Source: Aquificota bacterium | GTDB lineage: Bacteria > Thermosulfidibacterota > Thermosulfidibacteria > Thermosulfidibacterales > B14-G1 | DNA length: 59,327 nt | Assembly: GCA_015486015.1 (NCBI GenBank) | Contig: WFSL01000001.1 | Span: forward strand, 1-59,327 | Reading direction: 5' to 3' | Shown here: positions 8,482 to 59,036 of the stretch, piece by piece | How the letters are laid out: each line of letters opens with the position of its first letter | How positions within the stretch are numbered: position 1 is the first letter of the stretch | Translations under genes and position numbers: made by a program | Notes under the pieces: generated by a model | What the model saw: the letters and a program-made list of their open reading frames with translations, nothing else | What the model was told of the DNA's origin: nothing | Database searches by the model: none

Positions 8482-8856
8482 ATGAAGGTGTTGGAGAAGA
8501 AAACCTTCCGGTTAAGGGGAAAAGAGATCACTATCAGTCCAGAGGAGGCGTGTGCCCTGATGGAAGCTACAAATGGAATCACAAGCAAGGGTAAAAACCC
8601 GAAGTATTTTGTTGTGGTAGGAAAGAAGAAGGTACCAGTAAAAAGTGCATTAGAGAGCATTGTGAGAGCAAAGGGAATCAACCTCACTGTTCTTGACTTC
8701 ACTACTCAGGACGCTGTCAGGATTCTCAGAAAGCTTGGTTTCCTTATCGTCAAGGGCAAATGCAAAAGGGAAGCACTAAGACGCTACATAGGCGCTTTGT
8801 CCATAGAGGGGAACGCTGTCAAAGACAAGGAGAAGGCTTACAATGATCCTGTTTGA
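8482..8856 (+). CDS. Putative antitoxin of a PIN-domain toxin
   Basis: A 124-aa protein without a recognised family. It begins MKVLEKKTFRLRGKEITISP and has VLDFTTQDAVRILRKLGFLI in the second half, a short helix-strand pattern reminiscent of HicA-like or AbrB-adjacent small proteins, but not decisive. It directly precedes and overlaps by 14 nt the PIN toxin gene, the arrangement of an antitoxin. AGGAGG is placed before the ATG. Longer than usual VapB proteins (70-90 aa). The antitoxin role is inferred from context only. Confidence 0.55.
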   Translation: MKVLEKKTFRLRGKEITISPEEACALMEATNGITSKGKNPKYFVVVGKKKVPVKSALESIVRAKGINLTVLDFTTQDAVRILRKLGFLIVKGKCKREALRRYIGALSIEGNAVKDKEKAYNDPV

Positions 8857-9235
8857 CACCTCTTTTATCGTTGCTCTGCTTAACAAAAAAGACATTTTTC
8901 ACAGCCAAGCCAAAGAAGTTTTTGAAAAAATATCTGATGAGAAGGATTTAGCCGTCCACTACCTGGTGATGCAAGAAACCTATACAGTCATGTGTAGGAA
9001 AGCTGTCGAACGAGCTCACAGCATAAAAGAGATTTTCTCGACCCTCGAAGGGTTCTTCGGTGAAATAGGTATTATAAGCAGTTTACCTGACGAAGGAGAG
9101 ATCATATCCATCATGAAAGGGAGCAAGTGCGGTCTAAGCTACGTGGATGCTGTGCTGGCACACCTAAACAAGAAAACTGGGTTCGAGGTGCTCACCTTTG
9201 ACAAGAAGCTCATAGGGCACCTATCTCCTCTCTAA
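8843..9235 (+). CDS. PIN-domain ribonuclease toxin (VapC-like)
   Basis: A 130-aa PIN-domain protein, likely an Mg-dependent endoribonuclease. The conserved acidic residues are visible: Asp in MILFDTSFIVALL, Glu in YLVMQETYT, Asp in CGLSYVDAVLAHL and Asp in FEVLTFDKKL. Complete length for the family. Overlaps the preceding gene, indicating co-translation. Located between pstS and tRNA-Leu in an accessory stretch that also holds a relic IS. Confidence 0.85.
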   Translation: MILFDTSFIVALLNKKDIFHSQAKEVFEKISDEKDLAVHYLVMQETYTVMCRKAVERAHSIKEIFSTLEGFFGEIGIISSLPDEGEIISIMKGSKCGLSYVDAVLAHLNKKTGFEVLTFDKKLIGHLSPL

Positions 9236-9311: not shown

Positions 9312-9396
9312 TGCCGGAGGTGGGATTCGAACCCACACGGGCGCAGAACCCGGGGGATTTTGAGTCCCCTGCGTCTCCCAGTTCCGCCACTCCGGC
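9312..9396 (-). tRNA. tRNA-Leu, anticodon CAA
   Basis: An 85-nt tRNA read on the minus strand. The acceptor stem GCCGGAG pairs with CTCCGGC. The anticodon loop CTCAAAA carries CAA (positions 9360-9362), reading UUG. The long variable arm is of leucine type, and the T arm GTGGGTTCGAATCCCAC is perfect. The discriminator base is A and CCA is not encoded. Nothing else is seen in 9236-9311 except a small inverted repeat GGACTT/AAGTCC near 9245-9271. Confidence 0.95.
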
Positions 9397-9527: not shown

Positions 9528-10229
9528 ATGAAAGGATTGAGACTCAATAGGAGTGGGAAAACAGTAGGGCTGCTTCTGATGTTCGCTGTGACCGCCGCAT
9601 GTGCAGGGAGAGTTACACCGACGGGCGTGGGACAACATGCTGCCTTCTATGCAGTGAGTAAGATGGGGCCGAGATACAGCGAGTTTATATATGACGTGGA
9701 TCAAGCCGTTGCTGGGTCAGAGAGATTACTCTGGCACTCGCTTAAGGAAACCGTGGCCCCTTCTGGAGATCCCGTCCCCCCATTGGAAGAGGATGGATTC
9801 CAGCCCCATGGGGTCAGCGATGAGAAGGTTCACCAACGCCCAGATGAGGTGCTTTACAGAGAAGCCTGGCTGTTATTAAAGGAGGGAAACCTCATCCAAG
9901 CCTTTGAAAAATTTACCATGTTAGCAGAGCTCTTTCCCAACTCAAAGTTGGCCGATAATGCCCTTTACTGGGCAGGGGAGTGTTGCTATGCCCGCGAGCA
10001 ACTCGGCGAGGCGCTCCATTTCTTTCAAAGGGTGATCGTTGAATACCCCATGGGGAACAAGGTGCCTGACGCTATGCTGAAGATGGCGTATATTTACCTC
10101 CATCAGGGAAAAAGGACGGCCGGTATGGCTTTACTCCATCAGATCGTCACTGATTACCCTCACCATCCGGCTGCTGTGAAGGCCCTATCCCGCCTTTCAC
10201 TTGAAGAGCAGGGGATTGCATGTAATTGA
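9528..10229 (+). CDS. TPR-repeat lipoprotein (YbgF/CpoB-like)
   Basis: A 233-aa exported protein. A basic start and hydrophobic GLLLMFAVTAAC give a lipoprotein-type signal with a candidate lipid-modified Cys. The C-terminal half holds three tetratricopeptide units: EVLYREAWLLLKEGNLIQAF, LADNALYWAGECCYAREQLG and VPDAMLKMAYIYLHQGKRTA, each followed by FxxxxxxYP-like ends. This is the pattern of the periplasmic TPR proteins YbgF/CpoB or BamD-like. No Tol-Pal genes are adjacent, so the exact role is open. The open frame extends upstream over the tRNA complement; the ATG at 9528 gives the signal peptide. Confidence 0.7.
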   Translation: MKGLRLNRSGKTVGLLLMFAVTAACAGRVTPTGVGQHAAFYAVSKMGPRYSEFIYDVDQAVAGSERLLWHSLKETVAPSGDPVPPLEEDGFQPHGVSDEKVHQRPDEVLYREAWLLLKEGNLIQAFEKFTMLAELFPNSKLADNALYWAGECCYAREQLGEALHFFQRVIVEYPMGNKVPDAMLKMAYIYLHQGKRTAGMALLHQIVTDYPHHPAAVKALSRLSLEEQGIACN

Positions 10230-10274
10230 AGTGACACCTGGTTGAAGTTTCCTCTTTACTCGTTTAACTAAGGT

Positions 10275-10325
10275 GTGGCGATGAGGTCCGCCCTTAACTG
10301 CCTTAGCGGCTGATGACCTCTACCT
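10275..10325 (+). promoter_or_regulatory. Fluoride riboswitch (crcB motif)
   Basis: The conserved crcB-RNA elements are in order: GGCGATGAGGTCCGCC, then AACTGCC, then GGCTGATGACCTCTAC. GAGGTC (10283-10288) pairs with GACCTC, GGCG pairs with CGCC, and GCC with GGC, so both the stems and the pseudoknot partners are present. The closest remembered sequence is the Thermotoga petrophila fluoride aptamer, from which this differs by a compensated pair in the first stem. The 3' half CCTCTACCTC could also pair with GAGGTGAGAGG just before the ATG at 10347. This suggests fluoride-dependent release of the ribosome-binding site. Confidence 0.9.
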
Positions 10326-10346
10326 CAGGACCCAAGAGGTGAGAGG

Positions 10347-11183
10347 ATGCAGGCGCAAAAGCCGCGAGGCAAAGAGGGAAACCCAGAGGAGAAAACTAAG
10401 CTAAAAGAAGTTTTACGATATGTGCTCTCCCTATCTAAGTCAACAGGGGGGTTCGCCTATGCCAAGACCATCCCCCCGGGAATAGAGGACACATACTTCG
10501 CCATCAGGACGCTGGAGGCCATAGGGTACAGGGGAGGTCATCATGCAACCACAAGGTGGCTCCGAAGAGAGCCTTGGATCCCAGATCCCACAGGCCGAGT
10601 ACTCTACTTCCGCATAGCCCTTCACTTGAGGCTGGGTATTGAGGTCCCGTGGGAGATGATAAAAGAGGAGATCACAAGGTTTCTCCCAAAGCTCCAAGGG
10701 AACCCTCAGAAGCTGGACTTCTTGGGAAGGATCACAGCGATGGCCAGGAAACACCACAGGGCATGGGGAGAGATAGAAACCCTCCTGGAAGGGGAGGCCT
10801 ACAAGGCCAACCTCTCTATATCCCCCAAGGATACCTTACAAAAACTTTGGAGAAAGTATAGGGTACATGTTCAATATCGCCGTCCTTTAGACCTTTTATC
10901 GCTAAGTACCTTTTTGAAGCTCTCCCAAAATCCCGATGGGGGGTTCGGCTGCAAGCCCCACACTACCTCCTTTTTGGAGCATACCTACTTTGCCTATAGG
11001 CTCTTTGCAGAGCTAAGGATGGACCCTCCCAATAAGGAGGTAACAAAGGCCTTTATACTCAACTGCCAGAGCAAAAGAGGCGGGTTTGCCAGGGCCCCAG
11101 GGGGCGTTCCGTTCTTGGACACAACCTTCTATGGGATACGGGTCTTGGAGATGTTAGAAGGATACTGCCCTTTAGAACCTTAG
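10347..11183 (+). CDS. Prenyltransferase/terpene-cyclase-repeat (alpha/alpha toroid) protein under fluoride riboswitch
   Basis: A 278-aa soluble protein with three repeats of the prenyltransferase and squalene-oxidase repeat type: STGGFAYAKTIPPGIEDTYF near residue 33, DGGFGCKPHTTSFLEHTYFA near 199, and RGGFARAPGGVPFLDTTFYG near 246. Each is GGF followed by a T-Y/F-(F/Y)-A/G turn and a helix. The DxDD motif of cyclases is absent and the Zn ligands of protein prenyltransferases are not evident, so the enzyme activity is unknown. GAGGTGAGAGG precedes the ATG and lies directly after the fluoride aptamer. No signal peptide and no fluoride-channel features. Confidence 0.7.
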   Translation: MQAQKPRGKEGNPEEKTKLKEVLRYVLSLSKSTGGFAYAKTIPPGIEDTYFAIRTLEAIGYRGGHHATTRWLRREPWIPDPTGRVLYFRIALHLRLGIEVPWEMIKEEITRFLPKLQGNPQKLDFLGRITAMARKHHRAWGEIETLLEGEAYKANLSISPKDTLQKLWRKYRVHVQYRRPLDLLSLSTFLKLSQNPDGGFGCKPHTTSFLEHTYFAYRLFAELRMDPPNKEVTKAFILNCQSKRGGFARAPGGVPFLDTTFYGIRVLEMLEGYCPLEP

Positions 11184-11187
11184 CGCC

Positions 11188-11451
11188 TTAAGATGCATGC
11201 CTTGAGTACCTAACATGTAAAAAAATGGCCACAATGAGCGTTAGCAGGGTTGTGCCGTTTGCACAAATTATTATTAGATCTCTAAGATGAACACCGTATA
11301 GCATCCAAAGAAAAACACCAATGCTGAATTGGTACAGTGTGAGTCTACTTACATCCTTTGCCGACTTTGTTCTCCACATTCTTACAGCTTGGGGAACAAA
11401 GCCAAACATCGTCAATAATGCTGCGAGCCCTCCGACAGCTCTCCATATCAT
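11188..11451 (-). CDS. SemiSWEET-type sugar transporter
   Basis: An 87-aa protein with three membrane segments (about residues 5-20, 38-56 and 60-80), matching the half-size bacterial SWEET fold that works as a dimer. The PQ motif appears as TMFGFVPQAVRMWRTKSAKD in the first loop, and VSRLTLYQFSIGVFLWMLYG contains the second helix. Passive transport of small sugars or related solutes is the family role. Converges with the toroid gene with only four bases between the stops, so it is not in the riboswitch transcript. Confidence 0.9.
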   Translation of the reverse strand: MIWRAVGGLAALLTMFGFVPQAVRMWRTKSAKDVSRLTLYQFSIGVFLWMLYGVHLRDLIIICANGTTLLTLIVAIFLHVRYSRHAS

Positions 11452-58779: not shown

Positions 58780-58807
58780 CAATTTGCTGATCTTTGACAA
58801 TAGTAAA

Positions 58808-58965
58808 TCTTCCCCTGGGTGAACGGGAAGTCCGGTGAAAATCCGGCGCGGACCCGCCACTGTGATCGGGGACGAAAGCCGCAAGAGCCCACTGGGACCT
58901 AAGGATCCTGGGAAGGGGCGGTGAGTAGGATGATCCGAGAGCCAGGAGACCGGCCCAGGGAGAGC
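58808..58965 (+). promoter_or_regulatory. Cobalamin riboswitch
   Basis: The AdoCbl-type aptamer elements are present in order: GGTGAAAATCCGG, then GCGGACCCGCCACTGTGA, then the B12 box AGCCAGGAGACCGGCC (58940-58955). The closing stem CTTCCCCTGGG (58809-58819) pairs with CCCAGGGAGAG (58954-58964). Followed by an intrinsic terminator and a TonB-dependent receptor gene, so cobalamin should switch transcription off. The rest of 58617-58807 holds only the promoter. Confidence 0.95.
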
Positions 58966-59036
58966 CTCGCTCGGCATTTGCCGGTAAAAGGCCCTCGAGG
59001 AATGGGGCTGTGAGGGTTGGGTGGATAGGTTTGCTC

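Follow-up and report, generated by a model that had tools for sequence, protein, structure and literature searches.

We consider it probable that a genuine translational ON fluoride riboswitch controls an alpha/alpha-toroid protein in the window studied here (the whole 59,327-nucleotide stretch analysed, from contig WFSL01000001.1 of an Aquificota bacterium), that this toroid belongs to a recurring fluoride regulon of dynamin-like GTPases (DLPs) and toroids, and that the window is a deletion derivative of such a system, with a membrane-protection role that is inferred. The element itself is a genuine fluoride riboswitch, with ligand binding inferred from its family membership; the class is a known one, and the DLP and the toroid appear to be new as members of its regulon. 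The features concerned are listed in Table 1.

Table 1. Features of the riboswitch-toroid locus, in window coordinates.
Feature	Position	Strand	Sequence or support
Fluoride riboswitch aptamer	10268-10329	+	RF01734, 46.9 bits (gathering threshold 34), E 6.9e-10, model positions 1-64 of 64
Aptamer stem P1	10277-10292 (10277-10280/10289-10292)	+	GGCG/CGCC; loop holds pseudoknot strand GAGGTC, 10283-10288
3' pseudoknot strand	10315-10320	+	GACCTC; common to aptamer and anti-Shine-Dalgarno hairpin
Expression platform hairpin hiding the Shine-Dalgarno sequence	10317-10346	+	CCTCTACCTC (10317-10326)/GAGGTGAGAGG (10336-10346), one bulge
Probable remnant of deleted DLP leader fused to toroid	10347-10397, exact 3' limit uncertain	+	MQAQKPRGKEGNPEEKT; alignment to G003 DLP start
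Alpha/alpha-toroid protein, 278 aa	10347-11183	+	PF00432-like, 35.3 bits (gathering threshold 26.5)

An earlier note on this DNA, made from the sequence alone, had described a fluoride aptamer with its conserved blocks and compensated pairing, and the covariance-model scan that it proposed as a check bears this out: the match to RF01734 is full length and above the gathering threshold, and it is the only one that an Rfam scan returns from the 1.62-Mb genome. Both P1 and the pseudoknot GAGGTC/GACCTC are intact in the window copy, and in an alignment of 11 aptamers from nine genomes of the phylum every pseudoknot position pairs (100%), with double changes at three pairs; when the whole aptamer structure is slid along the same alignment as a control, only 34-59% of the cells are paired. 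The window copy scores toward the low end among those of the phylum. A TPR-protein gene ends at 10229, only 38 nt upstream of the aptamer, and transcription running on from that gene may therefore extend into the riboswitch as well.

The 3' strand of the aptamer had also been claimed to be complementary to the ribosome-binding site, and the predicted minimum-free-energy structure (-13.6 kcal/mol) is indeed the hairpin of CCTCTACCTC and GAGGTGAGAGG, a platform that competes with the aptamer for this strand. Support from the window copy alone is modest (z only -2.0 against shuffles); z is about -3.9 or below in 8 of the 11 phylum copies, and two others are weak (-1.3 and -0.75). The pseudoknot-closing strand pairs with the Shine-Dalgarno sequence before the start codon in other phylum copies too, so that the translational ON architecture proposed earlier recurs beyond the window. 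Since pseudoknot docking and formation of the Shine-Dalgarno hairpin both use the CCUC strand, the logic of the switch is that ligand turns translation ON. Without fluoride, the 3' strand would pair with the Shine-Dalgarno sequence and hold toroid translation off; with fluoride and Mg present, GACCTC would be held by GAGGTC in the pseudoknot, so that the hairpin could not form and the toroid would be translated. The architecture is observed, and the response to fluoride is likely, being inferred from the riboswitch family. Control of transcription by the fluoride aptamer is found as well, in other lineages, as is evident from two loci (L114 and L126) where terminator-like hairpins with T-runs behind them overlap the aptamer. 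Like the known crcB motif (RF01734), the window copy has all the core elements, a score above gathering and an ON-type platform; unlike it, the window copy acts through a translational Shine-Dalgarno hairpin and controls a toroid (in relatives, a DLP), not crcB/Fluc or CLC-F.

No Fluc/CrcB or CLC-F gene lies under the window riboswitch. A homologue of the CRCB family was not found anywhere in the window genome, and its one CLC gene, not established to be of the fluoride type CLC-F, is on another contig without a riboswitch. The toroid reading frame begins 17 bases after the aptamer ends, and the next gene, for a SemiSWEET transporter (11188-11451, - strand), is convergent. The earlier description of the sequence, including the aptamer, the Shine-Dalgarno hairpin, the toroid frame, the convergent neighbour and the lack of crcB or eriC beside it, was thus correct. 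Across the phylum, crcB is absent from eight of nine genomes, and each riboswitch found precedes a gene for a toroid, DLP or pyrophosphatase. The note had named as a refuting case an aptamer that in relatives lies upstream of an exporter deleted here; a gene has apparently been lost at the locus, but loss of an exporter is ruled out by the relatives, which show a DLP at that place.

Both riboswitch and toroid are present in all nine phylum genomes examined, the window genome (G000) among them. The order riboswitch-DLP-toroid is found in G001, G002, G003 and G005, and in G002 and G003 the toroid is followed by a pyrophosphatase and then a HEAT-repeat protein; in G004 the genes are split between two contigs, one with riboswitch and DLP and the other with a truncated DLP, the toroid, the pyrophosphatase and the HEAT-repeat protein. 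The riboswitch stands directly on the toroid in three genomes, of which G006 has its DLP elsewhere, G007 has separate riboswitches for toroid and DLP, and G008 has the order riboswitch, toroid, DLP. A second riboswitch in G003 precedes a pyrophosphatase. The relatives' DLP has a Dynamin_N domain and a long helical trunk, matches Nostoc BDLP (2j68) with an E-value of 5.7e-26 and was modelled with a pLDDT of 75; it shares Dynamin_N with the known bacterial DLPs (Nostoc BDLP, CjDLP 5owv, IniA 6j72 and B. subtilis DynA) and differs from them in being headed by a fluoride riboswitch. We note that in some toroid operons a protein of 138-142 aa is encoded after the pyrophosphatase and HEAT-repeat genes (L024 8849-9265, L025 5496-5912, L032 6133-6561), the G002 copy having no Pfam match. 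In G003 and G004 (L025 1449-1540, L031 6005-6100) the riboswitch-controlled Shine-Dalgarno sequence opens a 23-codon leader reading frame whose stop overlaps the DLP ATG, which suggests translational coupling; the leader and the DLP share one frame in G001 and G002.

Neither a DLP nor a family-I pyrophosphatase was found in the window genome, which is 96.75% complete; a PF00350 match there, covering 38 positions in a 438-aa frame, is of a sort that most control genomes show too and is not a DLP. The window sequence from the Shine-Dalgarno through about ten codons aligns over some 47 columns to the DLP start of G003 (CCAAGGAGGTGGAGGCATGCAGTCGCAAAGACAGGAGG...), with shorter alignments of the same leader to the DLP starts of G001 and G002, and homology to the G004 toroid sets in only after the window toroid's start. 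On the simplest reading, a deletion has apparently fused the DLP's riboswitch, Shine-Dalgarno, leader and start codon to the toroid. The arrangement in the window is probably secondary, because close relatives have riboswitch, DLP, toroid and pyrophosphatase in a row, the window lacks the DLP and the pyrophosphatase, and the first toroid codons resemble a DLP leader: an ancestral operon of that composition would have lost the two genes, leaving the toroid to be taken over by the riboswitch and start codon of the DLP.

To look beyond the phylum, GTDB genomes were scanned with the DLP alignment, which brought up at least 527 relatives; 80 loci were retained. According to a model built from the phylum aptamers, 69 of the 76 assessable DLP loci, those with enough upstream sequence, have a same-strand riboswitch no more than 700 bp upstream; the P2 pairs of this model are misregistered by about two columns, so that its matches rest mainly on sequence, and Rfam scores were above gathering in 13 of 15 DLP loci tested. 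Of the remaining loci, four lie at contig edges, and in seven, among them G008 with its toroid ahead of the DLP, no riboswitch is close upstream of the DLP. Hosts include Deltaproteobacteria, Nitrospirae, Pelotomaculum, Brocadia, a Gottesmanbacteria genome and an archaeal MAG, the last with riboswitch-DLP-toroid operons also (L129). The window case is no isolated curiosity: the link of riboswitch and DLP is widespread. A second, more divergent dynamin-like family of about 560-570 aa, led by a riboswitch and followed by a toroid, was seen at L179 and L180 (G258 and G341).

The toroid is also present in 10 of 50 DLP-bearing genomes; in six of these it lies on another contig with its own fluoride riboswitch upstream, all above the Rfam gathering threshold. 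Two small reading frames intervene between riboswitch and toroid at L138, and a NUDIX gene at L143, in a seventh genome. Of 395 genomes in a Desulfobacterota-type sample (the phylum of G024), 54 match the toroid at E<=1e-20, and 15 of these have a riboswitch within about 0.8 kb upstream, a proportion whose probability by chance is below 1e-23 under generous riboswitch densities. Five of the 15 had entered through the DLP scan, which leaves 10 of 49 independent of it; three more genomes (G258, G320 and G341, with G211 weakly) have riboswitch-DLP-toroid. Together with G006, G007 and G008, the 15 genomes supply the association that the note had suggested looking for, and as far as regulation goes there is good support for its view that the toroid responds to fluoride and is of unknown biochemical type. 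About two thirds of the toroid homologues in the sample have no nearby riboswitch, and the family may therefore have broader roles. Co-occurrence of toroid and DLP per genome is not enriched across the 395 genomes (13 shared between 54 and 75, about 10 expected); only their adjacency is striking. The two are thus separable, and the toroid counts as a member of the regulon independently of the DLP; that they form a joint machine is not shown. A strict dependence of the toroid on the DLP is rejected on this ground and on that of own-riboswitch toroids in sampled genomes without a DLP match. At L154 two fluoride riboswitches (726-797 and 1131-1203) stand in tandem upstream of a single toroid-MFS pair.

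The window protein meets the PF00432 profile above gathering and has the corresponding fold: an AlphaFold2 model (pLDDT 91) is a toroid of 12 helices with residues 1-8 disordered, and the best PDB folds are RabGGTase beta followed by squalene-hopene cyclases. It has no membrane segment, is basic (pI 9.7), and its conservation is dominated by a near-invariant Asp48, invariant Glu211 and Arg249, and several glycines. It is a soluble alpha/alpha-barrel of the prenyltransferase-beta/terpene-cyclase fold, and no catalytic claim is possible. Comparison with G004 indicates purifying selection (pN 0.175, pS 0.874), most of the divergence predating the loss of the DLP.

As to function, DLPs guard membranes in B. 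subtilis (PMC8844932), and HF enters cells through the membrane (PMC11139923). The likeliest role of the DLP and the toroid is to protect or remodel the membrane or envelope under HF or fluoride stress rather than export fluoride, an inference made without data on fluoride binding, expression or protection; a membrane-protecting role is possible, resting as it does on the general biology of DLPs, and is not shown. Because the toroid stands alone under riboswitch control in the window and in other genomes, it would retain a function independent of the DLP. Tentatively, and with somewhat less than an even chance of being right, we propose an exporter-independent fluoride-defence module, made up of DLP, toroid or both, in several bacterial phyla, an archaeal MAG and a CPR genome, which would lower HF entry or repair fluoride-damaged membranes and of which the window would hold a reduced, toroid-only version. 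The known fluoride regulon comprises Fluc, CLC-F, Na+/H+ antiporters, pyrophosphatase, enolase and HAD phosphatases (PMC11139923). Genes flanking the DLPs and toroids include those for Usp, Na+/H+ exchangers, MFS transporters, enolase, HAD phosphatase and pyrophosphatase, and in the pyrophosphatase, antiporter, enolase, HAD and Usp genes these loci resemble that regulon; they differ from it in that dynamin and prenyltransferase have no occurrence there, and in the lack of crcB from most of the phylum genomes. A literature search found no link of the fluoride riboswitch to dynamin or prenyltransferase-type proteins, although a prior listing of the dynamin family in the Baker 2012 gene survey is not excluded.

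Several other explanations were weighed against this reading. That the RNA match is a chance resemblance, conceivable for one motif of moderate length, carries next to no weight beside its E-value, the presence of the aptamer in nine of nine phylum genomes, the pseudoknot covariation and the conserved position and platform; the comparative evidence refutes it. It is decidedly improbable, in our estimation, that the arrangement is a vestige in which the riboswitch belongs to the deleted DLP and the toroid is merely the leftover next gene, with no need to serve a fluoride response. The riboswitch-DLP-toroid order of close relatives, the missing DLP and pyrophosphatase, the apparent fusion of the DLP leader to the toroid and the low score of the window aptamer within its phylum are all compatible with a vestige; against it, toroids have riboswitches of their own in G006, G007, G008 and many genomes of another phylum, neither the aptamer core nor the Shine-Dalgarno hairpin is disrupted, and purifying selection acts on the toroid, with the reservation on timing given above.

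A different question is what the proteins do. The toroid could be a true isoprenoid enzyme, resembling a terpene cyclase or acting as a protein prenyltransferase, whose task as fluoride rises would be to modify membrane lipids or to anchor the GTPase. It has the alpha/alpha-toroid fold and GGF...DT repeats of RabGGTase beta and farnesyltransferase beta (PF00432), fold and profile matches extending to squalene-hopene cyclases, and it adjoins a membrane-acting GTPase. In a profile alignment, however, the Asp, Cys and His that bind zinc in protein prenyltransferase beta subunits are not conserved at the positions aligned to the ligands of RabGGTase beta, which rejects a classical prenyltransferase; no gene for an alpha subunit was seen adjacent to the window toroid, and identity to solved members is about 14%. 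We regard an isoprenoid enzyme as somewhat unlikely, though a real possibility. Alternatively, the DLP and toroid might be made because, like pyrophosphatase and enolase, they are inhibited by fluoride, so that the switch compensates inhibition and adds no defence. Metal-fluoride complexes mimic phosphate in GTPases, and pyrophosphatase occurs in the same operons and enolase at some loci; yet the toroid has no obvious phosphoryl-transfer site, and one DLP family is linked to the riboswitch far more specifically than a generic GTPase would be. This explanation seems unlikely to us. If the DLP/toroid regulon is as we read it, the two families, one of them a dynamin, are candidates for fluoride resistance by means other than export and metabolic bypass, and fluoride, a simple inducer, offers a direct test of what it is that dynamins guard bacteria against.

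Other features of the window include a cobalamin riboswitch (RF00174, 110.5 bits) at 58800-58972 (+) and a tRNA gene with a long variable arm (55.5 bits) at 9312-9396 (-), which adjoins the start of the TPR-protein gene. A PIN-domain protein (8843-9235, +) overlaps a small upstream reading frame (8482-8856) in an arrangement resembling that of toxin-antitoxin pairs.
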